In this document: positions 6,870 to 49,000 of the stretch, in pieces
Position numbering within the stretch: position 1 is the first letter of the stretch
Layout of the letters: the number at the start of each line of letters is the position of its first letter
NCBI GenBank assembly: GCA_022823145.1
Contig: JAJDXS010000031.1
Span: 106,381-170,380 of the forward strand
Direction: 5' to 3'
Length of the DNA: 64,000 nucleotides
Source of the DNA: Gemmatimonadota bacterium
GTDB taxonomy: Bacteria > Gemmatimonadota > Gemmatimonadetes > Longimicrobiales > Gaopeijiaceae
Translations under genes and position numbers: made by a program
Notes under the pieces: generated by a model
Told to the model about the DNA's origin: nothing
Seen by the model: only the letters and a program-made list of their open reading frames with translations
The model's database searches: none

Positions 6870-6897
6870 GATTACATAATGACAACTACGCTTGACA
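6870..6897. repeat. AT-rich 28-bp element, copy 4
   Basis: Begins GATTACATAATG and ends CGCTTGACA. It matches the copy at 30089 at 21 of 28 positions and the copy at 48505 at 18 of 28, counted by hand. It sits in the intergenic space upstream of the minus-strand beta-propeller gene. TTGACA at 6892-6897 resembles a -35 box for the plus strand, but I found no convincing -10 box 16-18 bases further on. The rest of the gap (6898-7060) holds no gene. Confidence 0.55.
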
Positions 6898-7060
6898 GTG
6901 TGCTCCATTACCGCCTATCCCCGGACCCGTGTCCCCGGGTCCCAGGGTTCCGCGTCTAGCGGATGTGGGAGACGACTTGTCAGAAGTACAATGAGGCACA
7001 GACGAGGCGCGAATCTGCATCCCCGGAGCAGCATCCCCCAACGCACGGCAGGAGAGCATC

Positions 7061-7675
7061 ATGGATCACAACGACTATGGCGGCCTTCATGACGATCTGA
7101 AGCTCACCAGCGCCGCAATGAAGCGCCGCGATGCGCTGAAGTTTGCCGCGGGAGGGATGGGTGCACTGTACCTGTTCGGGTGCGCGGACGGGCTTGTCGG
7201 GAACGACGGTGTCGCCGGAGCCTGCGAGGCAATCCCCGAAGAGACGGCGGGCCGCGCGGTGTATGTTTGGCACTGTGACGCCGCCGGTCGCTACTCGCTT
7301 TACAACAGCGGCGCCACCGATCAGAACTACCTGCGGGGCGTTCAGGAGAGCGACGCCAGCGGCGAGCTGTCGTTTGTGACCATCTTCCCTGGCTGCTACC
7401 AGGGCCGCTGGCCGCACATCCACTTCGAGGTGTTCCCCAGCCTTGAGGCTGCAACCGACGAGCAAAAAAGAATCGCGACCTCCCAGCTCGCGTTTCCAGA
7501 GGCCGCTTGCGACGAGACGTACGCGACGGAGGGCTATGAGGACAGTGCTCGCGCAATGCAGGGGGTCTCCTTGGAGCGGGACACCGTGTTCCGGGACGGC
7601 GTGGCCCGGCAGATGGCCGCGATGACCGGGGATGTGAGGTCGGGGTTCGCTGCGAGGCTGACGGTGGCGGTGTAA
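7061..7675 (+). CDS. Intradiol dioxygenase-like protein, internally shortened
   Basis: A 204-residue TAT-exported protein (KRRDALKFAAGG) whose C-terminal two thirds is clearly the catalytic core of the intradiol ring-cleavage dioxygenase family. VYVWHCDAAGRYSLY and IFPGCYQGRWPHIHFEV contain the two Tyr and two His iron ligands. In the family, the N-terminal motif CEAIPEETAG is followed by PYP and some 50-60 residues of beta strands before the AVYVWHCD strand. Here PEETAG runs straight into RAVYVWHCD, so an in-frame internal deletion is likely. The C-terminus looks complete (MTGDVRSGFAARLTVAV). AGGAG precedes ATG 7061. Whether it still folds and binds iron is doubtful. No aromatic degradation genes lie nearby. 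Confidence 0.75.
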   Translation: MDHNDYGGLHDDLKLTSAAMKRRDALKFAAGGMGALYLFGCADGLVGNDGVAGACEAIPEETAGRAVYVWHCDAAGRYSLYNSGATDQNYLRGVQESDASGELSFVTIFPGCYQGRWPHIHFEVFPSLEAATDEQKRIATSQLAFPEAACDETYATEGYEDSARAMQGVSLERDTVFRDGVARQMAAMTGDVRSGFAARLTVAV

Positions 7676-7707
7676 GGGGCCAGGTGTAGCGGCCGCGAAT
7701 GTTCCCC

Positions 7708-7744
7708 GACCATATCACCATATGCGATATATGGTGATATGGTC
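7708..7744. repeat. Perfect inverted repeat, 16-base arms
   Basis: GACCATATCACCATAT (7708-7723), loop GCGAT, ATATGGTGATATGGTC (7729-7744). All 16 positions pair. It lies in the 171-base gap between the convergent ends of the dioxygenase and SNF2 genes. It could act as a bidirectional terminator hairpin, but the stem is AT-rich and no T-run follows on either side. An operator or a leftover of a lost mobile unit are alternatives. I see nothing else in the gap. Confidence 0.8.
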
Positions 7745-7846
7745 TGACAGCGATTCCGAACATCGACGATTCGGTCATGCGGAGGCCACTGGCGAAGCAA
7801 GGGAAGTCTCGCCGAAGATTCGGCGGCGATCAGAGGTGTCGGCGGG

Positions 7847-10800
7847 CTAACTCACCCCTTGCAACAACTCCAGCAGTTCCTCCGCGCTCAGCCGCGCGGG
7901 TGAGTCCGCCCCCTCCAGCAACCGGTCCGCGAGTTCCCGCTTGTGGCGGTGGAGCTCCACGATCTGCTCCTCGATGGTCCCCTTTGTGACGAGCCGGTAG
8001 ATGGTGACAGGGCGAGTCTGGCCGATCCGGTGGGCGCGGTCGGAGGCTTGGTCCTCCGCGGCCGGGTTCCACCACGGATCCATGTGAATGACGTAGTCCG
8101 CCGCGGTCAGGTTGAGTCCCACGCCACCGGCTTTCAGCGAGATCAGGAAGGCGTCGCCCTCGCCCGCCTGGAATGCTGCGATGCGTTCGGCCCGCACCTT
8201 TGCGGGGGTGGAGCCATCGAGGTACTGGTAGGGGACTCCGGCCTCGGTGAGGTGCTCCTCGATGAGCTTGAGGTGGCGCACGAACTGCGAGAAGACGAGG
8301 ACCTTGTGCCGACCCTGGCGCAACTCGTCGAGGGTGGTCGCAAACGTCTTCATTTTGGAGCTGGCCGGTCCCTCTGGATGTACCAGACGCGGATTGCAGC
8401 ACGCCAGGCGCAGCCTCGTCAGGTGGGCCAGTACCTGCAGGCGGCGCTGGCCGGCCTGGGACCCGGTGCTTGCCGGCCCGCTCTCCCCCGCCAGGGCCTC
8501 CAGGTCTTCCATCGCCCGCAGCCGCAAAGCCTCGTACAGGGCGGCCTCGTCGGGCGACATCTCGACGTGCAGGGTGACCTCGGTGCGCGGAGGCAGATCG
8601 TCGAGCACGTCGGCCTTGATCCGCCGCAGAACGAAGGGGGAGACCAGGCGGCGAAGGCGCGTCCGCGCGGCGGGGTCGCCGTCGCGTCCGATCGGCAGGG
8701 CGAAGTTCTCGCGGAAACTCTTCCGAGATCCCAGCATCCCCGGATTGAGGAAGCTGAAGAGGGAAAACAGATCGACCACGTTGTTCTGGATGGGCGTGCC
8801 GGTGGTGACCACCCGGAACTCCGCCTTGAGCTTGCGGGCGGCGCGGGCGCGCTTGGTGGCCGGGTTCCTGATGGCCTGCGCTTCATCGAGGACGACGGTG
8901 TCCCAGTCGATCGCGGCCAGCGCCTCGGCATCGATGCGCAGCAGGCCGTACGTGGTGATCACGACATCGAATGGGGCGAGGTCTTCGAGGCGGGCCGCGC
9001 GCGAGGCGGCGGGGCCGGTGTACGATCGCGTGTTCAGCGTCGGCGCGAAGCGGCGGGCTTCGTCGAGCCAGTTGGCGACGACCGATGTGGGGGCCACAAT
9101 CAGCGCCGGGCCGTTCGCCGCGCGGTCGAGCAGGAGCGCAAGGGTCTGCACGGTCTTCCCCAGACCCATGTCATCGGCGAGACAGGCCCCAGCTCCCATG
9201 CGGCTGAGCCGCGCAAGCCAGGCGAACCCTTCCTCCTGGTAGGGCCGCAGCTCGGCTTGCAGCGTACCGGGCAGGCGGGGCACGAAGGACCGGGCCTCGC
9301 TGAACTTGCGGAGTTGGTTGTGCCAATTCTCGTCGGCGGTGAGCCGGGTAGCGTCGAAGAAATCCCGGAGCGCGACCGCGGCCAGGCCGTGGAGGCGAAC
9401 CCGCTTCTTTCCGCTGAACGCGGACACGCTGCGCAGATCGGCCAGTTGGCGGCGGAACGACGCAGTGAGCGCGACGAAAGCGCCCTCTCCGAGCGGTACG
9501 AACCGTGACGACGGATTCCGGTCGATCAGTTCGAAGAGGGTGCGCAGATCGAGGGCGTGGTCCGCATCGATATCGAGCGTGCCCGAGGCGCTGAACCAGT
9601 CCGCCGCCGCCTTGACCGAAAGCTGCAGCGACGATGTATCCGCCCGCGCCAGAACCCGTAAGGGCTGACCCCTGGGCCATAGACAGCGGGCATTCGCCGC
9701 CTCGAGCTGGTCGACCAGCTCCAGGCAGTCGCCCGGATCGGGAAGGGTCAGCGACGCGTCCGGTCCGAGCGTCGACATCACGGGGCAGGCGATGACCAGC
9801 TCCAGCGCCGCATGCACCTCGGCGTCGAGGTCGCGCCGTGCCTGCACTGCTCCCCCGTTTACCGTAGCGAAAGCCGTGGTCCCGCCTGCGCCGGGTTGGA
9901 AAAACGTGCCCGAATCCGGCACAGGTTGGACCAGCAGGGTCACAACCAGCCCCGGACCGCTCGGTTCCAGCCGAACCCAGGGTCCGGGATCGGCTTCGAT
10001 CCGGCTCGCAACGCCGGCGGCATCTCCGATGATACCCTGCACCCGAATCTCTTCGGCGAGTGCCGAGACCGCATCGACGAGGCGGTCCCTCGCCTCGGCG
10101 GGCAACTGGATCCCCCGTTCCGGTATTGCCGAACAGAGCGTCTTGTGGCCGGCGGCAAAGTGGGTCACCTCGAGGCGCACATCGCTCGTGAACTGAACAT
10201 GGTGACTGTGAGGAGCGGCAACGTCGGCGTGCGGCGCGACCTGCACCTGGAGCACTCCGTCCTCTTCCTCCAGCAGCAGTTCCGGGTCGCGCTGCACCAC
10301 CTCGACCGGGTCGCCCGCTTCGTTGAAGACATAGGGGTGGCCCGCCAGCGCGAACACCCCCGAGATGGGAAGCTCGTACTCGGGCCGGCCTCTCCAGCGG
10401 TAGTTGTGTTGAACGATCTCTCCCGCGGCAGCCCGGTCCTGGTCGATGAGGAAGTCCATCTTCACGGCTTGTGCCTGCAGCCTCTTCAGCGCGACCACGC
10501 GGCCCTTGCTCCACTTTCCGTTCTTGTATCCACGCTGCTCCCTGGGCGACGCCGTGACGTCTCCGTAGTCGTCGATCGCCAGAATCCATGCCAGGCGCCG
10601 TAGCGGAGCGCCCGCGGCCTTCTTGCGTTTCCGTCCCTTCTTCCGCGTCTCGTGAGCGACCTGTTCGATCCCCTGGAGGATGTACTCCCAATCCGGCACG
10701 GGAGTGACGAGCGAGGCAAGCGAGGCCGTGCCCATCTCCTCGTGCATCGCTGCGGCGAACTCCGCAGCCGTGGTTGCGTCATCCCTGGCGGGAAGCCCGA

Positions 10801-12043
10801 GCATCTTCCACAGTTCGATGTCCTCACGCCCGCAGGCGCGCCACCACCGCGCGCACACCCCCAGGCACTCGGTCCCCATCCACCTGTATCCGTTGCCGGC
10901 CGCCTTGGCTCCGAAGTGAAGCAGGGTGGCGAAGTCATTGCTATCCGCGGGCTCGGGAAACTCGCCGGTCCAACAAGCCGCCAGTCCTTCGAAGAGGAGG
11001 CCGATGCTCGCCTCCCGGGCATGGTGGTGCCGGACCATGCCGCCTCCGCCACGGACATGGTCGGCCAGGTCGACCACTTCGAGCACGAGACGATCGGCTT
11101 CAACCTGCCGCGCGACCTGAAACAGGTGCTTCAGCTTGGCCGCGTGGGCCGGCGAATGGTCCCTGACCAGCGAAAGCAGCGACAGCGTGAAGGCGCCGCA
11201 CAGGGGAAAGACGTTGCGCTTGCGGGTTCCCGCCTTCTCGCACGCGATGGCCTCGTCGATGTACCTGATGGCTTCCGCGTCATCGCCCCGGAGCGTGGCC
11301 ACGAGAGCACGCGTGGACGCCAGTCCGGTGCGCGCGGGCTTGCTCTCGCGCAGGTCTTCCGGGAGCTCGGAGAACACCGCCAGGGCGTCGTCGAAGGCGC
11401 CCTGCATGACGTGGACCAGCGCCGCGCCGGCCGCGTGAACCGCCCGGTCGGCGCGGCTGGCGGCGTAGGCTTTCAGAATCGGTCCGGGCCGCTCGGCCGT
11501 CCGGACGACCTCGGCGAAGCAGCCGGTGAACGCCGCGTCGGTGTACCGTTCCGGCAGCCTGGACAGGACGCCCTCGACCCCCGGACACGTCAGCCAGCGC
11601 CATTCGTCCGCGTCGATGTCATCCAGCTCGCGGTCGATCCGGGCGAACCGCCGCGCCACGGTATGGTTGCGCAGTGCCATCGCCCTGTCCTGTGCGTCGG
11701 CGGTCCAGCTTACCGGGTAATGGTGGCGGAAGGCCTTCTCGATCCTGACGAGGCGGCGTTGCCGGTAGGCTTCCAGCGTCAACCAGGGCGCCCACTGTCC
11801 GGCCGCGATCAGCTTTCCGCGGACCCGGGACTCGTATGCGATGCCCGCCGCGACCACGGCCTCGCACGCAGCCCTGTGATTCTTGAGGCCGATCGCCCGG
11901 CGTCCGTGCTTGAACTTCGCCCGGCCCAGCACGTGAGCCACCTGTGACGGTGTGAGGGTGTGCGGAAACACGACCCCGAACGTCATGGCGACGAGGCGCT
12001 CGACCGGTTTCAGAGAGCGGTAGGGCTCGAAGAAGTCATACAT
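7847..12043 (-). CDS. Large SNF2-family helicase-like ATPase
   Basis: A 1398-residue protein. The C-terminal third is a complete SNF2/RapA-type ATPase: ELRPYQEEGFAWLARL, Walker A DDMGLGKT near residue 955, VVLDEAQAIRNP as the DExx box, TTGTPIQNN, then the second RecA lobe with VLVFSQFVRHLK, LISLKAGGVGLNLTAADYVIHMDPWWNPA and QASDRAHRIGQ. Such enzymes translocate on duplex DNA and remodel bound proteins. The first 900 residues show no family I can name beyond helical and beta segments (YDFFEPYRSLKPVERLVAMTFG at the start; KKGRKRKKAAG, a basic patch near residue 460). It is single-gene, divergent from a RHH/RelE pair. Roles in transcription recycling or phage defence are both possible; neighbours do not settle it. 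Confidence 0.9.
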   Translation of the reverse strand: MYDFFEPYRSLKPVERLVAMTFGVVFPHTLTPSQVAHVLGRAKFKHGRRAIGLKNHRAACEAVVAAGIAYESRVRGKLIAAGQWAPWLTLEAYRQRRLVRIEKAFRHHYPVSWTADAQDRAMALRNHTVARRFARIDRELDDIDADEWRWLTCPGVEGVLSRLPERYTDAAFTGCFAEVVRTAERPGPILKAYAASRADRAVHAAGAALVHVMQGAFDDALAVFSELPEDLRESKPARTGLASTRALVATLRGDDAEAIRYIDEAIACEKAGTRKRNVFPLCGAFTLSLLSLVRDHSPAHAAKLKHLFQVARQVEADRLVLEVVDLADHVRGGGGMVRHHHAREASIGLLFEGLAACWTGEFPEPADSNDFATLLHFGAKAAGNGYRWMGTECLGVCARWWRACGREDIELWKMLGLPARDDATTAAEFAAAMHEEMGTASLASLVTPVPDWEYILQGIEQVAHETRKKGRKRKKAAGAPLRRLAWILAIDDYGDVTASPREQRGYKNGKWSKGRVVALKRLQAQAVKMDFLIDQDRAAAGEIVQHNYRWRGRPEYELPISGVFALAGHPYVFNEAGDPVEVVQRDPELLLEEEDGVLQVQVAPHADVAAPHSHHVQFTSDVRLEVTHFAAGHKTLCSAIPERGIQLPAEARDRLVDAVSALAEEIRVQGIIGDAAGVASRIEADPGPWVRLEPSGPGLVVTLLVQPVPDSGTFFQPGAGGTTAFATVNGGAVQARRDLDAEVHAALELVIACPVMSTLGPDASLTLPDPGDCLELVDQLEAANARCLWPRGQPLRVLARADTSSLQLSVKAAADWFSASGTLDIDADHALDLRTLFELIDRNPSSRFVPLGEGAFVALTASFRRQLADLRSVSAFSGKKRVRLHGLAAVALRDFFDATRLTADENWHNQLRKFSEARSFVPRLPGTLQAELRPYQEEGFAWLARLSRMGAGACLADDMGLGKTVQTLALLLDRAANGPALIVAPTSVVANWLDEARRFAPTLNTRSYTGPAASRAARLEDLAPFDVVITTYGLLRIDAEALAAIDWDTVVLDEAQAIRNPATKRARAARKLKAEFRVVTTGTPIQNNVVDLFSLFSFLNPGMLGSRKSFRENFALPIGRDGDPAARTRLRRLVSPFVLRRIKADVLDDLPPRTEVTLHVEMSPDEAALYEALRLRAMEDLEALAGESGPASTGSQAGQRRLQVLAHLTRLRLACCNPRLVHPEGPASSKMKTFATTLDELRQGRHKVLVFSQFVRHLKLIEEHLTEAGVPYQYLDGSTPAKVRAERIAAFQAGEGDAFLISLKAGGVGLNLTAADYVIHMDPWWNPAAEDQASDRAHRIGQTRPVTIYRLVTKGTIEEQIVELHRHKRELADRLLEGADSPARLSAEELLELLQGVS

Positions 12044-12115
12044 TGGGGGGAACGCTGATTCCGTGAGTGAGACGCGTCAAGGCTGGTATTGGAAGCCCGG
12101 AAACATGCCACTTCA

Positions 12116-12143
12116 TTGCCTCGGTGTATAGCAAATGCTAGGA
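12116..12143 (+). promoter_or_regulatory. Candidate promoter and operator of the RHH/RelE pair
   Basis: TTGCCT (12116-12121), a 16-base spacer and TAGGAT (12138-12143) resemble a sigma-70 promoter. The small dyad TAGCA-AA-TGCTA (12128-12139) overlaps the spacer and the -10 box, where a ribbon-helix-helix antitoxin would be expected to bind for autoregulation. The antitoxin ATG follows 37 bases later. Both boxes are weak matches, so this is an inference from position. Confidence 0.4.
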
Positions 12144-12180
12144 TTGGGCCCACCGATACCACCAAACCGAGGAAGACGAG

Positions 12181-12405
12181 ATGGGCAAGGTGCAGATCAA
12201 CGTCAGGGTGGACGAAGCCCTGAAGGGGGCGGTCGTCGAGTTCTGCAGATCCCGGGGATTGGTCGTGGGCCACTTTGTCCAGGAGGCTCTGCTGGATCGA
12301 CTCGAGGAGCTTGAGGACATCGACGATCTCAAGCGAATTCGACACGAGCCCACTCGGCCGTTGGCCGATGTGATCCGGGAGCTCCAGCTCGATGGGACAC
12401 TATGA
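12181..12405 (+). CDS. Ribbon-helix-helix antitoxin
   Basis: A 74-residue protein starting GKVQINVRVDEALKGAVVEFCRSRGL, the strand-helix-helix pattern of RHH DNA-binding antitoxins (CopG/RelB/ParD-like). VVGHFVQEALLDRLEEL is the second helix. The acidic C-terminal tail (RLEELEDIDDLKRI, VIRELQLDGTL) would wrap the toxin. The RelE gene overlaps its last 14 bases, the usual arrangement for a coupled antitoxin-toxin operon. A small dyad lies in the promoter region, consistent with autorepression. Confidence 0.8.
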   Translation: MGKVQINVRVDEALKGAVVEFCRSRGLVVGHFVQEALLDRLEELEDIDDLKRIRHEPTRPLADVIRELQLDGTL

Positions 12406-12661
12406 GATCGAGGTCTCCCGCACGGCGGAAAAGCAGTTGCGCAAGCTCCCTCGGGACGATCAGGAGCGCGTCGTCCGCAGGATGCTGCTCCTGGCAGAAG
12501 ACCCGATTCCGCGGGGGTCAAGAAAGCTGACGGGATACGACGATGTCTACCGCGTTCGCGTGGGGCGATACCGGATCCTCTACAGCGTCTCCCGACACCG
12601 CCTTGTGATCGTCATTCTCAAGATCGGGTACCGGAGGGACGCCTACCGGCGGCATCGCTGA
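12392..12661 (+). CDS. RelE/ParE-superfamily toxin
   Basis: An 89-residue basic protein with the full RelE fold signature: YEIEVSRTAEKQLRKLPRDDQERVVRRM, then GSRKLTGYDDVYRVRVGRYRILYSV and a C-terminal strand VIVILKIGYRRDAYRR. Lys/Arg residues on the central strands, together with the RYRILY and GYRRDAYRR segments, match RelE-type mRNA interferases that cut mRNA in the ribosomal A site. Translation is coupled to the antitoxin by a 14-base overlap. An intact, probably active pair. Confidence 0.85.
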   Translation: MGHYEIEVSRTAEKQLRKLPRDDQERVVRRMLLLAEDPIPRGSRKLTGYDDVYRVRVGRYRILYSVSRHRLVIVILKIGYRRDAYRRHR

Positions 12662-12757
12662 CTAGACACCAGTCGGGACATGCGTGCGGCTCACCGCCGC
12701 TGTCGGCCCCGGAAGTACGGGCATGTTTGCCACCTCCAACCTTCCAGGGCCCCCGGC

Positions 12758-14116: not shown

Positions 14117-14137
14117 TCCGGGTCTCTCCTGCAATAA

Positions 14138-14162
14138 CTATCAATTTGCTAGTAATTGATAG
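14138..14162. promoter_or_regulatory. Perfect dyad operator upstream of the Fic gene
   Basis: CTATCAATT (14138-14146), spacer TGCTAGT, AATTGATAG (14154-14162). It lies 22 bases before the Fic start codon and is the only AT-rich patch in the gap to the divergent lipoprotein gene at 14268. Position and symmetry suggest a repressor site, most simply for the Fic protein's own winged helix. Confidence 0.65.
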
Positions 14163-14267
14163 ATCAAAGGGATGAGCCGGTCAACTAACCCGGGGGAACC
14201 TCGAAACAATCGCGCACGGTCCGTGTACCGCATCATACCTGAGTCTCATCGACAGGAGGCGACGATC

Positions 14268-27776: not shown

Positions 27777-28346
27777 TCACCTCGCCCGTGCGATGCACTC
27801 GATCTCCACCCGGGCGCCGAGGGCCAGCCCGCTTGCGGCCATGGCGGACCTGGCGGGTGGCTCGATGCCCTCGAAGAAGGTGAGGTAGACCTCGTTCATG
27901 GCTGCGAAGTCGGCGATATCGGCGAGGAAGACGGTGCACTTCACCAGATCTTCGAACCCGAGCCCGGCCGCTTCGAGGACCTGCCCGATGTTATCCATGG
28001 TCGCCCGGGTCTCGGGGCCGATCCCTCCCTCGACGAGGCGCAGTTCGCCACCTGGCACGGTGCCGATCGCGCCGGAGAGGAAGACGAGATCGCCGACGCG
28101 GACTGCCGGCGTGAAGACGGGAAGCCGCGCGACGCCCTCTGGCGTGATGTGTTCGATGCGTGTGGGTTCGGCCATTTCGGTGCCTTCTTGCTGTGCGTCC
28201 TCACCGGGCGCGGGGGAAGACTCGCACGCGACGATGGTGGCCAGCGCGGCCATGGTGACGATCCCGCAGGCGCGCCTGGGTGGGGTCGCCGCCGGTCCGT
28301 CACCGGGGTGGGGGCCGCGGGCCAGCCAGTGGAGTCTAACGCTCAT
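27777..28346 (-). CDS. Exported RidA-family lipoprotein
   Basis: A 189-residue protein. Residues about 60-189 are a RidA/YjgF domain (VGDLVFLSGAIGTVPGG, VLEAAGLGFEDLVKCTVFLADI, PPARSAMAASGLALGARVEIECIA with the substrate-binding Arg). Cytoplasmic RidA deaminates reactive enamines and imines. Here a basic n-region, PPRRACGIVTMAALATIVAC, precedes it and ends in a lipobox, so this copy appears to be exported and lipidated, which is unusual. ATG 28346 lies inside the last codons of the amidohydrolase gene, an 11-base overlap that couples translation. A short internal start at 28253 would leave too little signal sequence. The pairing suggests both act on the same extracytoplasmic compounds. Confidence 0.8.
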   Translation of the reverse strand: MSVRLHWLARGPHPGDGPAATPPRRACGIVTMAALATIVACESSPAPGEDAQQEGTEMAEPTRIEHITPEGVARLPVFTPAVRVGDLVFLSGAIGTVPGGELRLVEGGIGPETRATMDNIGQVLEAAGLGFEDLVKCTVFLADIADFAAMNEVYLTFFEGIEPPARSAMAASGLALGARVEIECIARAR

Positions 28347-30060
28347 ACCGAATCACTCCACCCACGATGGTCACGTCCACGCGTGCATCCGCCAGCTCAG
28401 CGTCCGGCACGCTGAGGATGTCGCGGTCGAGTACGACCACGTCGCCGAGCTTGCCGACCTCGAGGGAGCCCTTGTAGTCCTCCTCGAATGCGGCGATGGC
28501 GTTGTTGATCGTGTAGCTGCGCAGCGCCTCGACGCGGGTCATGTTCTGTTCCGGATAGTAGATCGACCCGTCGGCGGTCTGGCGCGTGACCGAGGCGCGG
28601 AAGCTGGCGAGGGGGTCGATGTCCTCGACGGGGACATCGGTGCCGTTGTTGATGAGCACGCCGGCGTCGAGGAAGGACCGCCACAGGTAGGTTCGCTCCC
28701 TGGCGCGGGTGTCGCCGAGGCGGAGGGGCACCCACGGGAAATCCGACGTGGCGTGCACACCCTGCATGGAGGCGAGGACGCCGATCTCCGCGAAGCGGGC
28801 GATGTCGTCGGGGTGGACGTGTTGCGCGTGTTCGATGCGCCAGCGGAAGTCGTTTCCGGCGCCGGCCGAGTCGAAGACGGACTCGTAGATGTCGAGCACC
28901 TCGCGGTTGGCTCGGTCGCCGATCGCGTGGGTGTTGACCTGGAAGCCGTGCTTGACGGCGACGTGGGCCGTGCCGGTGATGTCCTCGACGGTCTCGAGAA
29001 CGAGGCCGGCCGAAGTGGGCATGTCCTCGTATGGCTCCAGAAGCCAAGCGCCGTGCGAACCCAGCGCGCCGTCGATCTGACGCTTGATGGAGCGTACGGT
29101 GAGGTAGTCGTCGCCCTCGGACGGCATGTAGTAGTCCGCCAGACGCGCGTCCATCTCCTCGTTGGACTGGCGGCGGACCATGATGTACAGGCGGACGGGG
29201 AGCGCGCCCTCGGCCTCCAATTCCTTGAGGCGGTCGATGGTGCCGAACCCGCTGCCAGCGTCCTGGAACGAGGTCACGCCGTTGGAGAGCGCCTCCTCGG
29301 CGGCCAGCATCACCTCGCGCCGGAACTGGGCTTCGATCTCTTCCGCCGTGCGGCCCAGCTGCGAATCGGAGAAGGCCGCGGATACCGGTCCCTGCGCCGT
29401 CTCACGCAGGAGGCCGGTCAGTTCGCCGTTCTCGTCGCGGACCAGCTCACCCCCCGGTGGCGGCTCGGAGTTCCGGTCGTAGCCGCCAAGGGCGAGCGCG
29501 GCGGCGTTCGCGAAGCCGGCGTGGCCGGACGCATGACCGAGGAGCACCGGGTTGTCCGGGCTCACGGCCGAAAGGGAAGCATGGGTCGGGTTGCCCTCGA
29601 CCACCGGATCCGGCGGCCGGTCCCACTTCTCCTGGTGCCAGCCGCGGCCGCGGATCCACTCCCCGGGCTCGGCCTCGGCCGCCGCGTCGGCGACCATCTG
29701 CACGATCTCGTCCCAGTTGGCGACGTTGTTGAGATCGAGGATGGTCTTGCTGTTGCCGAGACTCATGTAGTGGCCGTGCCCCTCGATGAAGCCGGGCATG
29801 GCGAAGCGGCCGTCCAGTTCGATCACCTCGGTGTCGGCGCCGATATAGCCCTCGACATCCTCGTCGCTGCCCACCGCGACGATCCACCCGTCGTCGATCG
29901 CGACTGCTTCGGCCATTGTGTTGCCCGCGTCGACGGTGGCCACGACTCCGCCGTGGAGCACCAGGTCGGCTGGGACGGGTGCGTCATCGGAACCCGGTGT
30001 GTCGGCGCAGGCGGCCACGAGGAGGGCGGCAAACGCGAGCGTCGAAAACGCACGGACCAC
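28336..30060 (-). CDS. Exported amidohydrolase (YtcJ/amidohydrolase-3 type)
   Basis: A 574-residue lipoprotein (AFAALLVAAC, Cys18). The metal-dependent amidohydrolase barrel is evident: FAMPGFIEGHGHY (HxH), LLGHASGHAGFANAAAL, GVTSFQDAG, VNTHAIGDRANREVLDIYE, RIEHAQHVHPDDI and a C-terminal GKLGDVVVLDRDI composite domain. Enzymes of this branch hydrolyse amide or cyclic amide bonds, and relatives are often misannotated for substrate. I prefer GTG 30060, which has GAGG eight bases upstream and puts the signal peptide at the N-terminus. ATG 30096 is in frame but falls inside the AT-rich 28-bp element. It overlaps the RidA gene downstream. Confidence 0.85.
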   Translation of the reverse strand: MVRAFSTLAFAALLVAACADTPGSDDAPVPADLVLHGGVVATVDAGNTMAEAVAIDDGWIVAVGSDEDVEGYIGADTEVIELDGRFAMPGFIEGHGHYMSLGNSKTILDLNNVANWDEIVQMVADAAAEAEPGEWIRGRGWHQEKWDRPPDPVVEGNPTHASLSAVSPDNPVLLGHASGHAGFANAAALALGGYDRNSEPPPGGELVRDENGELTGLLRETAQGPVSAAFSDSQLGRTAEEIEAQFRREVMLAAEEALSNGVTSFQDAGSGFGTIDRLKELEAEGALPVRLYIMVRRQSNEEMDARLADYYMPSEGDDYLTVRSIKRQIDGALGSHGAWLLEPYEDMPTSAGLVLETVEDITGTAHVAVKHGFQVNTHAIGDRANREVLDIYESVFDSAGAGNDFRWRIEHAQHVHPDDIARFAEIGVLASMQGVHATSDFPWVPLRLGDTRARERTYLWRSFLDAGVLINNGTDVPVEDIDPLASFRASVTRQTADGSIYYPEQNMTRVEALRSYTINNAIAAFEEDYKGSLEVGKLGDVVVLDRDILSVPDAELADARVDVTIVGGVIRYER

Positions 30061-30088
30061 GGCGCAAGCCTCAGAAATATATACTTTA

Positions 30089-30116
30089 GATGACATAATG
30101 TAATGTTCGCTTTACA
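30089..30116. repeat. AT-rich 28-bp element, copy 3
   Basis: Begins GATGACATAATGTAATG and ends TTCGCTTTACA. It matches the copy at 48505 at 22 of 28 positions and the one at 6870 at 21 of 28. It ends 29 bases before the preferred GTG of the minus-strand amidohydrolase, and so lies where its promoter or operator should be. The end of the TAT epimerase gene is 11 bases to the right. Confidence 0.7.
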
Positions 30117-37037: not shown

Positions 37038-38789
37038 ATGTCAAGAAAACATTACAAACTGTCGTGTTGGCATTACTATTCGCGTTCGGCGAAGCGCTGG
37101 TGGAGCCTCACCGCCGTCCTGGCGTTCGCCTCGTGCTCAGTCCCCGCTACCGAGATCGGACCGTTTCCGGTTGTGGAAGCCTCGATCCCCGAACTGCAGG
37201 CCGCGATGGAGCGCGGGGAACTCACGTCGCGCCGGCTCGTCACCGCCTACCTGGTGCGGATCGCGCTCTACGAGGAGAGGCTGAACGCCGCGATCTCCAT
37301 CAACGAGAGCGCGCTGGCGGAAGCCGACGCGCTCGACGCGGAACGCGCGCGGGGCAACGTCCGGGGCCCTCTTCACGGCATCCCGGTCGCGCTCAAGGAC
37401 AACATCCACACGACCCACCTGCCCACCACGGCCGGAGCGCTGGCCTTCGACGGCTACGTGCCGCCGTACGAGGCCACGCTGACGGCGAACCTGCGCGAGG
37501 CGGGCGCGATCATCATCGCCAAGGCCGGGCTCACCGAGTTCGCGAACTGGATGGCGGGCCCGCCCAATCCCATGCCCGGGAACTACAACGCGCTGACCGG
37601 CTTTGCCTACAACCCGTACGATCCGCGCCGCGACCCTCGCCCGGCCACCTTCGACGGACGTCCCGCGCTCAGCACCGGCGGGTCGAGCTCCGGCGTCGGA
37701 ACCGCGGCCAGCTTCTGGGCCGCGAACGTCGGGACCGACACCGGCGGCTCCGTGATCAGCCCGTCGAACGCCAACATGCTGGTGGGGATTCGCCCGACGC
37801 TGGGACGGATCAGCCGATGGGGAATCGCACCGGTCACCCTCGACCACGACATGGCCGGCCCGATGGCACGCACCGTGGGCGACGCCGCCATCCTGCTCGG
37901 CGGGATGGAGAGCGCGGCGCCCGACCCGAACGACCCCGCGACCGATATCTGCGAGCCGCCGCCCGGGCGCGACTACCGGGCCTTCCTGAATCCGGACGGG
38001 CTGCGCGGGGCCCGCATCGGCATTCCGCGGGCGTTCTACTTCGACCCGATCCGGCTCGACGGCGAGGACCGGGAGCGCGGCGGGCTCAACGAGGCTCAGC
38101 GCGCGCTCATGGAGGAAGCGATCGCGGTGCTGGAGGCCGAGGGCGCGGTGGTGGTCGACCCGGCCGACGTGCCCAGCTACGCGACGACCGACCCGGACTC
38201 GAACTTCGCCGCGTGGGGGTTCTGCGCGGGGGGCCACCAGGGGAAGGGCGCCGACGGGGACTGCTCGGTGAACTTCAAGTACGGAGCGAAGCGGGACTTC
38301 AACGCGTGGCTGGCCACACTGGGGCCGGACGCGCCGGTCGCCACGCTCACCGGGCTGCGCGAGTGGAACGCCGCACACGGGCGTGCGGGCGCCATCAGGT
38401 ACGGTCAGGCCCGCTTCGACATTTCCGACGAGATGGATGTCGAGGCCGACCGCGCGCGCAACGAGGCCGACATGGCCAGGGACGAGCTGTTGAGCCGGAC
38501 GCGCGGGATCGACGCGGTTCTCGCGGAGCACGACCTCGACGCGATCCTGACGCCCGGCAGCCGGGGCGCGGGGCTCGCCGCCCGCTCCGGCACGCCGATC
38601 ATCGTCGTCCCCTTCGGCTTCGTGCCGAACGAACCCGCGCAGCCGTTCCCGGAGGGGTTCGACGCCCGCCCCGCACCCTTCGGCGTGGGCTTTACGGGAG
38701 CCAATTGCAGCGAACCCCGGCTGATCGAACTGGCCTACGCCTTCGAGCAGACGACGCAGCGACGGGTGGCGCCGCCGGGGGTGCCGTGA
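37038..38789 (+). CDS. Exported amidase-signature enzyme
   Basis: A 583-residue amidase-signature hydrolase. The catalytic set is clear: VALKDNIHT (Lys), STGGSSSGVGTAASF (cis-Ser) and VGTDTGGSVISPSNAN (nucleophile Ser). The signal region WWSLTAVLAFASC gives a lipobox. A loop with EDRERGGLNEAQRALMEEAI and a Cys-bearing FCAGGHQGKGADGDCSVNFKYG is specific to this branch. The only plausible start, ATG 37038, makes an odd n-region (HYKLSCWHY), because the AT-rich 28-bp element at 37050 is translated as part of it. It is paralogous to the 20903 enzyme, without the CHRD tail. An AbiEii remnant lies just upstream on the other strand. Confidence 0.85.
   Translation: MSRKHYKLSCWHYYSRSAKRWWSLTAVLAFASCSVPATEIGPFPVVEASIPELQAAMERGELTSRRLVTAYLVRIALYEERLNAAISINESALAEADALDAERARGNVRGPLHGIPVALKDNIHTTHLPTTAGALAFDGYVPPYEATLTANLREAGAIIIAKAGLTEFANWMAGPPNPMPGNYNALTGFAYNPYDPRRDPRPATFDGRPALSTGGSSSGVGTAASFWAANVGTDTGGSVISPSNANMLVGIRPTLGRISRWGIAPVTLDHDMAGPMARTVGDAAILLGGMESAAPDPNDPATDICEPPPGRDYRAFLNPDGLRGARIGIPRAFYFDPIRLDGEDRERGGLNEAQRALMEEAIAVLEAEGAVVVDPADVPSYATTDPDSNFAAWGFCAGGHQGKGADGDCSVNFKYGAKRDFNAWLATLGPDAPVATLTGLREWNAAHGRAGAIRYGQARFDISDEMDVEADRARNEADMARDELLSRTRGIDAVLAEHDLDAILTPGSRGAGLAARSGTPIIVVPFGFVPNEPAQPFPEGFDARPAPFGVGFTGANCSEPRLIELAYAFEQTTQRRVAPPGVP
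37050..37077. repeat. AT-rich 28-bp element, copy 2
   Basis: Begins CATTACAAACTGTCGTG and ends TTGGCATTACT. It matches the copy at 48505 at 23 of 28 positions. It overlaps codons 5-14 of the amidase gene, adding the unusual residues HYKLSCWHY before the signal peptide core. The AbiEii remnant ends 58 bases to the left. Confidence 0.7.
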
Positions 38790-40354: not shown

Positions 40355-41521
40355 CTATCCCTTCGCGATCAGCCGCTCCATGAGCGCTGGCAGCGGGATG
40401 GCCGTGATCCCGTCCCCGAGTGGATAGGTGTCGGTGCCCGGGTACACGATGAACTTCCTCGCTGCGGCGACGTCGGCGGTGGCAATGCGGAATCCTCTGG
40501 GCACTTTCGGCGCCGAGGAGCGCTTCACCTCTACCGCCCACGGCTCCTGTCCGGGGAGGAGCAGCAACAGGTCGATTTCGGCTCCGGACCGGGTTCTGTA
40601 GAAGAAGGCGTCCGTGCCCACGGGAGCGGCGCCGACCAGGTTCTCCACGACGAGGCCTTCCCAGCTGGCGCCCGCGACGGGGTGTCCGAGAAGGTCTTCC
40701 AGGGATCGGATGTTGAGGAGAGCGTGGACGACACCGCTGTCCCGCACCAGGATCCTGGGTGACTTGATGAGGCGCTTGCCCACGTTGACGTGGTAGGGCT
40801 GGAGGCGACGCAGCAGCATCATGTCGACGAGGGTATCGGTGTAGCGGTTCACGGAGGGCACGGAGACTCCGAGGCTTCGTGCCAACTCGGCCGCGTTGAA
40901 CACCGAGCCCTGGAGGTGGCACAGCATCGTCCAGAACCTTCGGAGCGTCTCGACGGGAGTCCTGAGTCCGGTCTGGGGGAGGTCCCGCTCGAGGTAGGTG
41001 CGAGTGAAGCTCGTGCGCCAGCGGAGACTCAGTTGGTCACTGGCGGCGGTGAAGCTCTCCGGGAAGCCGCCACGCAGCCACAACCTGTCAAGGTCGGGAC
41101 CGGCTTCCAGCGCATCGAACGGGGGCAGCTCGCGATAGGCTACACGCCCGGCGAGCGACTCGGCGGACTGCCGAAGCAGCGCCCCGGACGCCGATCCCAG
41201 CAGCAGGAAATGGGCGCTGTTGCGGCCCTCGCGGCGCCGCGCGTCGATCTGCCCGCGCAGTGCCCGGAAGAGGCCGGGCATCCGCTGTACCTCGTCCAGA
41301 ATGACCAGCCGGTCCCGGTGGAGGTTGAGATAGGTGCTGGTGTCCTCCAGCCGAGCGAGGTCCGCGGAATCTTCAAGGTCCAGGTAGAGGGAGCGCGGAA
41401 CCGAGTCGGCGATTTCGCGCGCGAGCGTGGTCTTTCCCACCTGCCGGGGCCCAAGGAGGACGACCGAAGGGAATGCGGCGAGATCGCGCCGGATGAGTGC
41501 CACGTGACGTCGCTTGATCAT
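40355..41521 (-). CDS. AAA ATPase with DUF4143 domain
   Basis: A 388-residue ATPase. The N-terminal AAA domain has Walker A GPRQVGKT (residues 24-31) and Walker B RLVILDEVQ (71-79), then LRRLWRGGFPES-like LWLRGGFPESF. The C-terminal half (VPSVNRYTDTLVDMMLLRRLQPYHVN, GASWEGLVVENLV, FFYRTRSGAEIDLLLLLPG, WAVEVKRS) is the DUF4143 part, with a PD-(D/E)xK-like EIDxxL...EVK nuclease pattern. A winged helix lies between (FNAAELARSLGVSVP). Function in this large family is unresolved. A dyad operator runs right up to the start codon at 41521, so it is probably autoregulated and may be leaderless or very short-leadered. Confidence 0.87.
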   Translation of the reverse strand: MIKRRHVALIRRDLAAFPSVVLLGPRQVGKTTLAREIADSVPRSLYLDLEDSADLARLEDTSTYLNLHRDRLVILDEVQRMPGLFRALRGQIDARRREGRNSAHFLLLGSASGALLRQSAESLAGRVAYRELPPFDALEAGPDLDRLWLRGGFPESFTAASDQLSLRWRTSFTRTYLERDLPQTGLRTPVETLRRFWTMLCHLQGSVFNAAELARSLGVSVPSVNRYTDTLVDMMLLRRLQPYHVNVGKRLIKSPRILVRDSGVVHALLNIRSLEDLLGHPVAGASWEGLVVENLVGAAPVGTDAFFYRTRSGAEIDLLLLLPGQEPWAVEVKRSSAPKVPRGFRIATADVAAARKFIVYPGTDTYPLGDGITAIPLPALMERLIAKG

Positions 41522-41522
41522 A

Positions 41523-41558
41523 CTTGCTAATCTCTAAGTATGATTAGCGATTAGCAAG
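41523..41558. promoter_or_regulatory. Dyad operator abutting the AAA/DUF4143 start codon
   Basis: CTTGCTAATC (41523-41532) and GATTAGCAAG (41549-41558) pair over all ten bases, with a 16-base spacer. A third GATTAGC half-site lies at 41542-41548 directly next to the second arm. The site begins two bases from the start codon of the minus-strand ATPase. Three half-sites suggest cooperative repressor binding, perhaps by the ATPase's own winged helix. Confidence 0.7.
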
Positions 41559-41698
41559 GACAAATCGGTATGACCAACTGTAAGCCGCGCGACGCACCCC
41601 TCACCCGCGGATCGCTCCGAACGGCTGAGCGAGGCAACCGCACGCCCCCCGGCCGGACTCACCTAAAATGGCCCTGCTAGCGGAATCGGACGCTCAGG

Positions 41699-41729: not shown

Positions 41730-41765
41730 GCGTGGTGGGATGGTAATGCCGGACGGGATCGATCG

Positions 41766-44830: not shown

Positions 44831-44945
44831 CCGGAGGCCCGGATGGGCCGTGGCAGGACGGGACCCTGGAGGGGTACGGGCGGTGCGCTCAGAGGCCTGG
44901 TGCGTGTGCACCGGCATGGCATTCAGCGCCACGGTCCGAGATCAT

Positions 44946-46112
44946 TCACGCTTCCTCGACTCGGGCACCGGGTGACGGCTCAACGGCGAACACGACCCTG
45001 CCGACCGGCGGCCCCCTTAGTCGCGGCTGGTAGAAGCGCGCCACGAGGGCTTCCATGACCGGCCCGACGGTGGTGTCGTCGCACAGCGCGACGGCGCAGC
45101 CACCGAAGCCGGCACCGGTCAGGCGCGCTCCCGCGGCCCCCGCGTCGAGCGCCACCTCGACGATCGCGTCCAACTTCCCCGTGCTCACCTCGTAGTCGTC
45201 CCGGAGACTCTCGTGCGACTGCACCATGAGGTGGCCGAATCGACGCACATCCCCGTCGCCCACGGCCACCTCGGCCTGCGCCACCCGGCGCCCCTCCGTC
45301 ACGACGTGCCGGAACCGGCGAAACAGCACAGGGGCGAGAGTGCGGCGTGCCCGGCGCAACACGCGGTCGAGATCGTCCGCTGCCATGAGGTCGCGGTAGG
45401 CGGGCATCCCGTCGGTCGACCGGTCCGCCAACCCCGCCAGCGCCTCGCGACACTGCCGCGCCCGCTCGTTGTACGCCTCGCGCGCCCCACCCGACTTCTC
45501 GGCCCGCACCAGCGACGACGCCACCACCCACCGCCATCCCTCCGGCACGGCCACCGGCGTCACCCGCAGCGGCTCGAAGTCGATGCGGAGCGCGTGCCCG
45601 GCCACGCCGTGAAGGCACGCGGCCTGGTCCATGCCGCCCCCTTCCAGCCCGACGAACCGCTCGGCGCGCGCCATCAGGGCGGCGAGTTCGAGGCGGGGAA
45701 GGGTCGCGCCATTCGCCTTCAGCAGCGCCAGCGCCGACGCGACCACCAGCGCCGACGAGGACGACAGCCCCGACGCGATCGGGACGTCGCCCGTCACCGT
45801 TCCCACGATCCCGCGGCGCAACTCCACCCCGTGCTCCAGCAGACCCCGCGCCGCCGCGCGCACGTAGTTCGACCAGTGTCCCTGGCTCGCAGCCTCGATG
45901 GGACGTTTCAGCTGAAACGCGAAGGGGTCGAAACGCGCCAGGGGGCTGTCCAGCCGCACCACCGGGTCGTCCGCGATGGTGAAGTCGATGCGGACGTCAC
46001 GGTCGATGGCGATGGGGAAGACCGGGAGGCCGTTGTAGTCGGTGTGTTCGCCGATCAGGTTGACGCGGCCGGGGGCGATGGCGAGCCAGCGGGTGCGGGC
46101 AGAGCCGGGCAA
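44946..46112 (-). CDS. galK: Galactokinase-type GHMP kinase
   Basis: A 388-residue sugar kinase, expected to phosphorylate galactose (or a close hexose) at C1 in the Leloir pathway. The three GHMP motifs are present: APGRVNLIGEHTDYNGLPVFPIAID (galactokinase signature), GDVPIASGLSSSSALVVASALAL (ATP loop) and GARLTGAGFGGCAVAL. EGGGMDQAACLHG holds the catalytic Asp region. It starts at TTG 46112, about ten bases after GGGAGGG. It is the last gene of the nucleotidyltransferase, symporter, kinase operon, which fits uptake, phosphorylation and nucleotide activation of one sugar. The exact sugar is inferred from the family only. Confidence 0.85.
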   Translation of the reverse strand: MPGSARTRWLAIAPGRVNLIGEHTDYNGLPVFPIAIDRDVRIDFTIADDPVVRLDSPLARFDPFAFQLKRPIEAASQGHWSNYVRAAARGLLEHGVELRRGIVGTVTGDVPIASGLSSSSALVVASALALLKANGATLPRLELAALMARAERFVGLEGGGMDQAACLHGVAGHALRIDFEPLRVTPVAVPEGWRWVVASSLVRAEKSGGAREAYNERARQCREALAGLADRSTDGMPAYRDLMAADDLDRVLRRARRTLAPVLFRRFRHVVTEGRRVAQAEVAVGDGDVRRFGHLMVQSHESLRDDYEVSTGKLDAIVEVALDAGAAGARLTGAGFGGCAVALCDDTTVGPVMEALVARFYQPRLRGPPVGRVVFAVEPSPGARVEEA

Positions 46113-46223
46113 CTCAGGTGGCCCTCCCGCAGGCGAACCGCGGACTTACGGAGGCCGTCCAGGTGAATCGGCCCCGCCGCGCCGACCCGGGCCGCCCTCC
46201 TGCCCCACCTCCAACCCCACCGC

Positions 46224-47996
46224 TCAATCCGCGAAGCCCAGTTTCGGCAGCAAGCGGAACAGCCACACCCCCGCCCCCGCCGAGATCGCCAGCGCGACCA
46301 CCGCCGCCACGCCCTGCCCATACAGCAGATAGCCCGTCCCGAAGAGGGCCGCGTAGACCAGTACGCACCCCAGGAACCACGCCAGGAATGCCGCGGTGAC
46401 CGACTCGGCGTCGCGCGAGCCTTCGCCCACGTCGACGACGCGCTGCCAGCCCTTGCCCATCGGACGGATCCTGTCGTAGAAGCGCTGGAGCGTGTCCAGG
46501 TCGGCGGGCGGGGTGACGAGGGTGACGGCCAGCCAGCCGACCGTCGTGACCGCAACGCCGATTACGAGCTGCTCCCACGCCGGCATGGGCGCGAAGCCGA
46601 GCGCGGTGTGGACGAACGCGAAATGGATGGCGACAAGGAACGAGATCGTCATGCCGGCCAGCTCGCTCCACACGTTGACGCGGTACCAGAACCAGCGCAG
46701 CAGGAAGATGAGGCCCGTGCCGGCGCCGATCTGGAGGAGGATCTGGAACCCCTGGCCCGCGGTGTCGAGCTGCAGGGCGATGAAGGCGCCGAGGAACATG
46801 AGGCCCACCGTCGAGAGGCGCCCCACCGCCACCAGCCGCCGCTGGCTGGCGTCCGGGTTGACGAAGCGGCGGTAGAAGTCGCTCACCACGTAGGACGAGC
46901 CCCAGTTGAGCTGTGTGCTGATCGTCGACATGTACGCGGCCGCGAGCGACGCGACCACGAGTCCCAGCAGCCCGGCGGGAAGGAACACCAGCATGGCCGG
47001 ATAGGCCAGGTCGTTGCCTACCAGCGAGGGGTCGAGGTCGGGGAAGCGCGCCTGGATGTCCGAGAGTTCCGGGTAGACCAGCATCGAGCAGAGCGCCACG
47101 ATGATCCACGGCCAGGGACGGAGGCCGTAGTGCGCGATGTTGAACCAGAGCGTGGCCTTCATCGACTCCTTCTCGCTCTTCGCCGCCAGCATGCGCTGTG
47201 CCACGTAGCCTCCGCCGCCCGGCTCGGACCCGGGGTACCACGCGCTCCACCACTGCACCGCTATGGGGATGATGAAGATGCCCGCCGCGACGCTCCAGTC
47301 GGAGAAATCCGGGAAGAAGTTCATCGCGGAGCGCAGTTCGGGGTGCGAGACGAGGCCCGCGAGCCCGCCGACTTCGGGCTGCTGGAGCGCGAACACGGCG
47401 GCCGCGATCGACCCGATCATGGCGACCACGAACAGGATGAGGTCGGTCACGACGACGCCCCAGAGCCCCGAGGTGGCCGAGTAGATCATGGTGACCGAGC
47501 CCGCGATCAGGACGGTGGTGAGCGGGTCGAGTCCGAGGAGCACACCGCCGATCTTGGTGGCGGCGAGCGTTACCGTGGCGATGATCATCACGTTGTAGAA
47601 GACGCCCAGGTAGATCGCGCGGAACCCCCGCAGGAACGCCGCCGGACGCCCCGAGTAGCGCAGCTCGTAGAACTCGATGTCGGTCAGCGCGCCGGACCTT
47701 CGCCAGAGCCGGGCGTAGAAGAAGACCGTGCACATCCCGGTGATCAGGAAGGCCCACCACGACCAGTTCTGCGCGACCCCGGCGCCGCGCACGAAGTCGG
47801 CGATCAGGTTGGGCGTGTCGGTCGAGAAGGTGGTCGCGACCATCGACGTGCCGAGCAGCCACCAGGGCAGCTTCCGACCCGACAGGAAGAACTCGTCCGC
47901 CCCCGAACCCGCGCGCCGCGCGAAGCGGAGGCCGATTGCGAGTGCGGTGAGCCCGTAGAGGGCGATGACGATCCAGTCGAGTGTGGAGAGTTGCAT
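46224..47996 (-). CDS. Sodium:solute symporter (SSS family)
   Basis: A 590-residue membrane protein with about 13-14 helices. SSS signatures: FFLSGRKLPWWLLGTSMVATTFSTDTPNLIADFVRG, SATSGLWGVVVTDLILFVV, and LGLVVASLAAAYMSTISTQLNWGSSYVVSDFYRRFV (the conserved sodium-site helix). It would import a sugar with Na+. ATG 47996 lies five bases after the nucleotidyltransferase stop. There is no separate ribosome site, so translation is coupled. Galactokinase follows downstream, after a gap of 111 bases (46113-46223) that holds no gene. Confidence 0.9.
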   Translation of the reverse strand: MQLSTLDWIVIALYGLTALAIGLRFARRAGSGADEFFLSGRKLPWWLLGTSMVATTFSTDTPNLIADFVRGAGVAQNWSWWAFLITGMCTVFFYARLWRRSGALTDIEFYELRYSGRPAAFLRGFRAIYLGVFYNVMIIATVTLAATKIGGVLLGLDPLTTVLIAGSVTMIYSATSGLWGVVVTDLILFVVAMIGSIAAAVFALQQPEVGGLAGLVSHPELRSAMNFFPDFSDWSVAAGIFIIPIAVQWWSAWYPGSEPGGGGYVAQRMLAAKSEKESMKATLWFNIAHYGLRPWPWIIVALCSMLVYPELSDIQARFPDLDPSLVGNDLAYPAMLVFLPAGLLGLVVASLAAAYMSTISTQLNWGSSYVVSDFYRRFVNPDASQRRLVAVGRLSTVGLMFLGAFIALQLDTAGQGFQILLQIGAGTGLIFLLRWFWYRVNVWSELAGMTISFLVAIHFAFVHTALGFAPMPAWEQLVIGVAVTTVGWLAVTLVTPPADLDTLQRFYDRIRPMGKGWQRVVDVGEGSRDAESVTAAFLAWFLGCVLVYAALFGTGYLLYGQGVAAVVALAISAGAGVWLFRLLPKLGFAD

Positions 47997-48001
47997 GGGC
48001 G

Positions 48002-49000
48002 TCAATCGTGGCGTGAAGGGGTTGGCGGAGCGTCCCAAAGGCGCATGGGATAGACCCCCGAGTCTACCAGCCCCTGCAGCGATTGGGCCACTCCCGGCTG
48101 GTCGCCCGGGAAGGTCACGCCGAGCCACGGCTCGCGGGTGGGCAGCACGGTGCAGCGCGCACGGCCGGCCGCGATGAGGTCGTTCATCGCCTCGGACAGG
48201 TAGAACTCGCGGTCCGTCCCCGGTCCGGCCGCGAGGAACGCGGAGAACAGGTCGCGCAGGGCGGGCAGAATGTCGGGCTGGAAGCCCCAGAGGTTGGTGC
48301 AGACAGGAGCTTGCAAGGCGACGTCAACCGGCCTTCCGGCGACGTCGCGCCCCACCACGCGATCGCCCGCGCGGCGGAGGTCCAGGCCCTCGGTCAACCG
48401 CCTGAGGGCGCCCGTGTCGTCGATTTCGCATATGCCCCGGGAGACGCCTCCGCTCTCCGATAGCGTGACCTCAAGGGGATAGCCGACCGTGAATGTCATG
48501 TTTGCATTACATAATGTAATGTCGGCATTACTTTGCGGTGCTTCCGTGTCCTGCGTCACGGTGGCGGGCGTCGGGCGGGCCCCGCGCATCGCAGCGGCGA
48601 GCGTGGCATAGGCGCCCCGCCCGTAGAAGTCGTCGGCGTTGCAGACCGCGAACGCGCCGTCGACGTGCTCGGCTGCCGTGAGCACGGCGTGGCCGGTGCC
48701 CCAGGGGCGGGTGCGGCCGGGGGGAGGCGTGTCCACGAGGCCGGGGTGTGCCATGCGCTGACAGGCGTAGCGGATGTCGAGGCCGGCGGCTCGCGCAGGC
48801 GCCAGGTGGGAGTCGAAATCGGGTCGCAGCGCCTCCTGGATGACGAAGTGGAAGCGCGTGAATCCCGCGAGCGAGCCGTCGTAGAGCGCGTAGTCGAGCA
48901 GCGCCTCGCCACCGGGGCCGACCGGTGCAAGTTGCTTGAGGCGGCCGAACCGCGTGGAGCGGCCTGCCGCGAGGATGACCAGGGTGAGGGGTGAATTCAA
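48002..49000 (-). CDS. Sugar nucleotidyltransferase carrying an AT-rich in-frame insert
   Basis: A 332-residue NTP-transferase. VILAAGRSTRFGRLKQLAPVG is the nucleotide-binding loop; PWGTGHAVLTAAEHVDGAFAVCNADDFYG holds the metal Asp pair; VGYPLEVTLSESGGVSRGICEID continues the core. Between RGARPTPAT and TVGYPLE, where relatives pass directly from strand to strand, residues about 148-170 form an insert. It contains a tandem heptapeptide SNADITL-CNANMTF, encoded by the AT-rich element at 48505. The flanking domain halves are intact and in frame. Start is TTG 49000 without a visible ribosome site; no other start is available. First gene of the symporter/galactokinase operon. Confidence 0.82.
   Translation of the reverse strand: MNSPLTLVILAAGRSTRFGRLKQLAPVGPGGEALLDYALYDGSLAGFTRFHFVIQEALRPDFDSHLAPARAAGLDIRYACQRMAHPGLVDTPPPGRTRPWGTGHAVLTAAEHVDGAFAVCNADDFYGRGAYATLAAAMRGARPTPATVTQDTEAPQSNADITLCNANMTFTVGYPLEVTLSESGGVSRGICEIDDTGALRRLTEGLDLRRAGDRVVGRDVAGRPVDVALQAPVCTNLWGFQPDILPALRDLFSAFLAAGPGTDREFYLSEAMNDLIAAGRARCTVLPTREPWLGVTFPGDQPGVAQSLQGLVDSGVYPMRLWDAPPTPSRHD
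48505..48532. repeat. AT-rich 28-bp element, copy 1, inside a gene
   Basis: Three CATTAC/GTAATG hexamers alternate in direction: CATTAC 48505-48510, GTAATG 48516-48521, CATTAC 48526-48531. The first two form the perfect 17-base palindrome at 48505-48521. On the coding (minus) strand a 19-base unit GTAATGCNNACATNACATT occurs twice with a 21-base period, giving the heptapeptide tandem in the nucleotidyltransferase. The region is strikingly AT-rich against its GC-rich gene. ACCGTGA (48486-48492) and TCACGGT (48556-48562) flank it as a 7-base inverted repeat. Confidence 0.75.

Follow-up and report, generated by a model that had tools for sequence, protein, structure and literature searches.

The ARG boxes of ArgR consist of two 18-bp palindromes 3 bp apart with the half-site TGAAT, the division and nucleoid regulators SlmA and RefZ have short palindromic sites over the chromosome, and the Rickettsia palindromic elements (RPE), of about 100–150 bp, are regarded as mobile. 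Noc sites are 16 bp long (PMC8429893). As described in PMC3733652, repetitive extragenic palindromic (REP) repeats and bacterial interspersed mosaic elements (BIME), with their GTAG and CGTC superfamilies, are palindromic sequences of 20–40 bp, dispersed, mostly intergenic and occasionally inside genes, and the usual place of REP repeats is between co-directional or convergent genes. Here, we describe a 39-bp double palindrome that occurs four times in a stretch of 64,000 nt (the window, meaning the whole stretch analyzed) from a Gemmatimonadota bacterium (assembly GCA_022823145.1, contig JAJDXS010000031.1, positions 106,381 to 170,380), and that recurs in the window's genome (G000; 4.49 Mb, 83 contigs) and through its genus.

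The 39-bp unit resembles the ARG boxes in having two 18-bp palindromes with a 3-bp gap but has the half-site TGTMAWS in place of TGAAT. As with the sites of Noc, SlmA, and RefZ, short palindromes are found across the chromosome without a regulon, although the unit has paired 18-bp palindromes where Noc has 16 bp. Like RPE, it is palindromic DNA able to sit in frame in protein genes; it differs in being shorter and mostly intergenic. With REP and BIME it shares the palindromic, dispersed, mostly intergenic character and the occasional copy inside a gene, and its location is also that of REP, with 42 of 48 intergenic sites between co-directional or convergent genes versus 100 of 147 site-free gaps. 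Unlike REP, it is AT-rich and made of four protein-type half-sites. The GTAG/CGTC tag of REP was absent, positions 2–5 being G-T-(A/C)-A with G at position 5 in 1% of half-sites, and stem complementarity with compensatory changes was not seen (no clear dyad covariation in 55 sites). No title or abstract opening describing the repeat was found in literature searches on Palauibacter, roadblocks, Gemmatimonadota palindromic repeats, Rickettsia elements, and Noc/SlmA, and a description may still be in print.

Architecture and distribution of the 39-bp unit

A sequence-only reading of the window had pointed to a family of four AT-rich 28-bp elements at 6870, 30089, 37050, and 48505 in otherwise GC-rich DNA. 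The four copies are present at these positions, the window has a G+C content of 68.1%, and each held-out copy ranked third to fifth of all positions on both strands when scored with a matrix from the other three. Pairwise identity had been put at 18–23 of 28 positions; the upper end is correct, and the lower end is 16, for the 6870/37050 pair. The 28-bp frame proved too short. Using a matrix from the four window copies, each copy also scored on the opposite strand 11 bp to the left, so that the actual repeat is a near-palindrome of 39 bp, and the 28-bp copies are the right-hand parts of units starting 11 bp further left. A matrix scan located these units, without assigned strand, at 6859..6897 (34 bits, the weakest of the window), 30078..30116 (47.5 bits), 37039..37077 (52.2 bits), and 48494..48532 (61.6 bits).

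Four half-sites TGTMAWS, alternating in orientation, make up the unit and form two 18-bp palindromes TGTMAWST-NN-ASWTKACA with the joiner WWW and centers exactly 21 bp apart. This distance corresponds to two helical turns and therefore places both palindromes on one face of the helix. Two sets were read closely: 55 sites scoring at least 33 bits, from 525 kb of G000, 49 of which were used to build the matrix, and 44 fetched copies from the closed sister genome G021, of which 195 kb were scanned for lone 18-mers. In the matrix, the 18-mer positions G2, T3, A5, A16, C17, and A18 were at 94–100%, and the degeneracy across copies was of the M/W/K kind (position 4, A/C; position 15, T/G; positions 6 and 1, A/T). 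The architecture in G021 was identical, with more halves of the TGTAAAC and TGTATAC types. The 18-mers inside the G000 sites had a median of 25.8 bits, and one-tenth of them were below 17.3 bits. Outside the 55 sites, the 525 kb contained no lone 18-mer of at least 18 bits and one of at least 16 bits, and no third palindrome; the 195 kb of G021 held no lone 18-mer of at least 16 bits. For the stretches read, which surround sites, the 39-bp site is close to an all-or-none unit.

The genome contained 30 copies with up to 3 mismatches to a strict pattern and 87 copies with up to 3 mismatches to a looser degenerate pattern, and the reversed control of each gave 0. First-order Markov shuffles of the 525 kb gave no match of at least 8 bits in five replicates, versus 55 of at least 33 bits in the real sequence. 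The family thus withstood both challenges set out for it in the sequence-only reading, namely, a lack of further copies in the genome and equally good families in shuffled sequence.

A symmetric pattern had 15–103 copies in 22 of the 23 genomes of the genus, and G009, with 0 copies, was the sole member without sites. The same pattern had no match in 36 genomes from the same family or order. Across 395 genomes sampled from the larger set for the phylum, 23 had a match, these being the 22 genus members and G252, a genome of the same family with a single match and the only one among 372 phylum genomes outside the genus. The exact strict pattern was found in six stretches of three Gemmatimonadetes metagenome-assembled genomes (MAGs), including bin SB0664_bin_10, in a search of 84,980 species genomes from which the window's own genome was possibly left out. 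A match in a viral contig (L151) was AT-rich, apparently unrelated, and was set aside. The site is restricted to one genus and occurs almost nowhere else searched. G011 was the smallest of the genus genomes compared (2.8 Mb) and had the most sites (103), and the sites of the closed genome G021 appeared, by inspection and among the matches listed, to be spread over the chromosome.

Conservation and position at gene ends

Sixteen orthologous site pairs from G000 and G002, mostly ascertained on both copies, differed at 19/448 half-site positions (4.2%), 22/96 spacer positions (22.9%), and 80/320 flank positions (25%). Between orthologs, the half-sites thus appear constrained and the spacers free, as would be expected of a protein-binding site. 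Three of the 16 pairs are window sites that were reached also through homologous genes or DNA regardless of the motif, and these three motif-independent sites were all kept in G002 and G015. Two sites of L055, likewise tested without conditioning on the motif, were kept where readable, one in G002 and one in G015. The gap between the epimerase and amidohydrolase genes had a site of at least 20 bits in 12 of the 17 genus genomes read; the site was missing in G016, G019, G001, G018, and G003, with an apparent remnant in G019 consisting of its last few bases only. Protein binding as the putative role of the sequence is supported by its dyad symmetry and two-turn spacing, by the M/W/K degeneracy, and by half-sites that persist as the spacers change.

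In G000, 48 of the 55 sites lay between called genes, 31 between co-directional, 11 between convergent, and 6 between divergent genes, and the site-free gaps of at least 39 bp (n = 147) comprised 80 co-directional, 20 convergent, and 47 divergent ones. Divergent gaps were avoided (6/48 sites versus 47/147 site-free gaps; Fisher p 0.009, region counts). Eleven G021 copies and one G000 copy (L040:5001) were left out of the placement tests as parts of a miniature inverted-repeat transposable element (MITE), and five copies with one MITE arm stayed in. Of the 54 non-MITE G000 sites, 39 overlapped a stop codon or started within 50 bp after it, and uniform placement would give 26.4 of the 47 gap sites (p 0.006, with the other 7 counted near stops). 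The stop codon is supplied by the site itself in seven G000 cases (gap −5). Placement within 50 bp of a start codon was no commoner than uniform placement predicts (15/54; mean of 18.8 for the 47 gap sites). What lies at gene ends above expectation in the window's genome is a genus-wide, paired, half-site-constrained 39-bp unit.

Favored explanation and its alternatives

On balance, and with about as much doubt as belief, we favor the 39-bp repeat as the binding site of a genus-specific four-subunit DNA-binding protein that would form an architectural or transcription-boundary mark at gene ends. Two dimers, or one tetramer, of a putative helix-turn-helix-type protein would bind cooperatively. 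Since the site is symmetric, the complex would act alike in either direction, as suits gaps between convergent genes and positions directly after stop codons. Once bound, the protein would halt read-through transcription, or else anchor and organize the nucleoid. The function of the bound complex is speculative; the placement of the sites agrees better with a boundary or architectural role than with a regulon. A more specific version, which we regard as quite improbable, is a DNA-marked transcription insulator, with a dedicated tetramer on the two-turn double palindrome after stops acting as a genome-wide roadblock terminator that would stop RNA polymerase from either side. Intrinsic-terminator-like hairpins were few in a simple scan of the 525 kb of G000 (6/157 gene 3′ ends), with 1/42 at gene ends with a site versus 5/115 at those without.

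Several points weigh against a boundary or architectural site. No binding protein was identified when ArgR, extra ParB, and the Pfam-scanned neighbors of the sites were examined. Thirteen of the 16 orthologous pairs were picked because both copies match the pattern, which favors conserved half-sites, and transversions dominate in half-sites (13/19) and spacers (20/29) alike, so that the type of change is no evidence. Sites turn over: seven of the 44 G021 sites had a flanking gene in the G000 stretches and two shared the gap, and G016 was without a site at the three loci checked (the epimerase-amidohydrolase gap, 37039, and the first L055 site). Enrichment in convergent gaps was not significant by region counts in G000 (p 0.17) or in G021, and the G021 copies showed a stop preference (22/33, p 0.21) and an avoidance of divergent gaps (p 0.32, region counts) in the same direction as in G000, neither of them significant. 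Gene calls in both genomes were from a simple caller, and the stretches were picked around sites. Of the window copies, one falls within a gene and a second probably at a gene's start. Ten of the 44 fetched G021 copies were between both arms of the MITE, 6 more were beside one arm, and 28 had neither.

Two candidate binders were rejected. ArgR was considered because of its two 18-bp boxes 3 bp apart; G011 has 103 sites without a match to PF01316, and G009 has 0 sites and one match. A Noc-like ParB paralog was rejected since one ParB_N match was present in 21 of the 23 genus genomes, including the site-free G009, and two in G014 and G016.

A possible but unlikely alternative is that the repeat belongs to the small mobile palindromic elements (REP-, RPE-, or MITE-like) and inserts where harmless, mostly after stops and sometimes in frame in linkers. 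It would account for a copy number of 0–103 between species, for whole pairs being found with no strong lone halves, and for an in-frame linker copy in a nucleotidyltransferase (NTP-transferase) gene that is present in some species, missing in others, and elsewhere in the linker in G020; REP repeats, too, are found mainly between co-directional and convergent genes (PMC3733652). The MITE is a dispersed element of ~240 bp (or ~165 bp) with the terminal repeats CAGYCCGTGGACAAA/TTTGTCCACGGGCTG; its copies often have CTAG at each end and often lie near stop codons, and tandem 171-bp copies occur (loci L155, L158, and L189 in G021; L040:4900-5180 and L040:8020-8220 in G000). The longer form holds the 39-bp site between GCGAAGC repeats, and shorter copies are without the site block. 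MITE arms, however, were around 1 of the 55 G000 copies, with no one-arm copies there, and an inverted repeat of at least 11 bp between the flanks was found for only 2/55 G000 copies and 0/44 G021 copies. Terminal inverted repeats around each copy, as would be expected of a MITE, were not seen (both arms at 1/55 in G000 and 10/44 in G021); the MITE can carry the site, but most copies read are outside one.

Other properties also speak against a mobile element. Half-sites are kept while spacers drift in pairs that were mostly ascertained on both copies, and the G000 spacers showed no clear excess of copying (22 pairs with at least 7 of 8 positions alike versus 17.5 expected). Few matches were found between the flanks of G000 sites, one being a pair of related DUF222-HNH genes (L028:3601-4992 and L047:4645-5163, the second called shorter), each followed by a 39-bp site with different spacers. 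The REP-associated tyrosine transposase (RAYT; Y1_Tnp, PF01797) had 0 matches in the 23 genus genomes and was present in 12 of 59 genomes overall, and a REP/RAYT reading was rejected on this ground; the GTAG/CGTC tag and clear stem covariation are missing as well. The dispersed mobile repeat of the sequence-only reading is thus supported in part, by the G021 copies with one or both MITE arms, and finds little support in the G000 copies or their spacers.

The 12-mer GTCCCATCCAGC or its neighbors are common to the flanks of the G000 sites L045:5001, L057:5001, and L058:5001 and are possibly the trace of another repeat.

We consider it improbable that a global transcription regulator uses the sites as operators, with the downstream genes as its targets. 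A dyad structure is typical of repressor operators, the site upstream of the amidohydrolase persists in 12 of the 17 genomes read, and 31 of the 48 intergenic sites are between co-directional genes. Divergent regions are nevertheless the ones avoided (6/48 versus 47/147 site-free gaps), 11 sites are in convergent gaps with no downstream gene, and proximity to start codons shows no excess. Pfam scans covered 43/48 of the 5′-facing and 24/60 of the 3′-facing neighbors, some truncated to 500 aa and several lacking a Pfam match, and no regulator gene beside a site was seen among them. The 5′-facing neighbors were a mixture of unrelated housekeeping and catabolic genes (GreA/B, LptC, a RecQ-like helicase, ApaG, alanine racemase, urocanase, a TonB-dependent receptor, and others), with no evident function in common. 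From the earlier proposal of operators controlling exported catabolic proteins, protein binding is retained, given the dyad, the spacing, and the conserved half-sites, and the regulon is not, given the mixed neighbors.

Paired RNA hairpins at mRNA 3′ ends, which palindromes near stops could form as two small hairpins, are highly improbable and were rejected, as were terminators, because pairing within the 18-mers and across the dyad showed no clear covariation in 55 sites (z −1.8 to 1.8 overall and −1.5 to 1.8 across the dyad, apart from +2.5 at a single spacer position), a result that speaks against a hairpin, no Rfam family matched the window and three loci, terminator-like hairpins are rare with or without a site, and the 60 nt after the stop fold less stably at sites (−14.2 versus −21.2 kcal/mol elsewhere), in line with the higher A+T content of the sites.

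Copies in the window and meaning of the mark

The gene contexts given in the sequence-only reading hold. The 30078 site is before the start of an amidohydrolase gene (Amidohydro_3 by Pfam; 28336..30060, minus strand), which begins 17 bp after it, and also follows an epimerase gene (PF01370; 30127..31305, minus strand), whose stop codon is 10 bp before it. The 37039 site overlaps, or is just upstream of, an amidase start, with a plausible start codon at 37038; if this start is right, one further site is coding. The open frame from 37038 gives a lipoprotein-like N terminus and is intact in G002 and G015 and not in G006, and the site is present in all three. The 48494 site is inside a gene, an open reading frame for an NTP-transferase-like protein (48002..49000, minus strand; PF12804, 2.4e-08), where it is translated in frame within a length-variable linker. 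A site of at least 25 bits was found in this gene in 7 of the 22 genomes in which the gene was found; the G013 copy is cut off before the linker, G020 has its site at another spot of the linker, and other species have none. The linker is hypervariable, its length differing between most of the genus species compared. The 6859 site is in a divergent gap, between a beta-propeller gene (5554-6807, minus strand) and a dioxygenase-like gene (7061-7675, plus strand), both assigned by Pfam.

Other AT-rich palindromes are present in the GC-rich window at 2030-2072, 7711-7747, 14123-14177, and 41510-41566, for example ACTAAACATAATTGTTTAGT and ATATCACCATATGCGATATATGGTGATAT. These and their companions had no match to the 39-bp motif and are perhaps operators of other regulators.

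The 39-bp repeat is a sharply defined, genus-restricted mark that is present tens of times per genome and has neither a regulon nor a known transposase. A search for the protein and its function can use the site-free sister species G009 as a natural contrast and should start there. Should it prove to be a roadblock terminator or a nucleoid anchor, the mark would represent a lineage-specific fencing of genes in a group represented here by MAGs alone.

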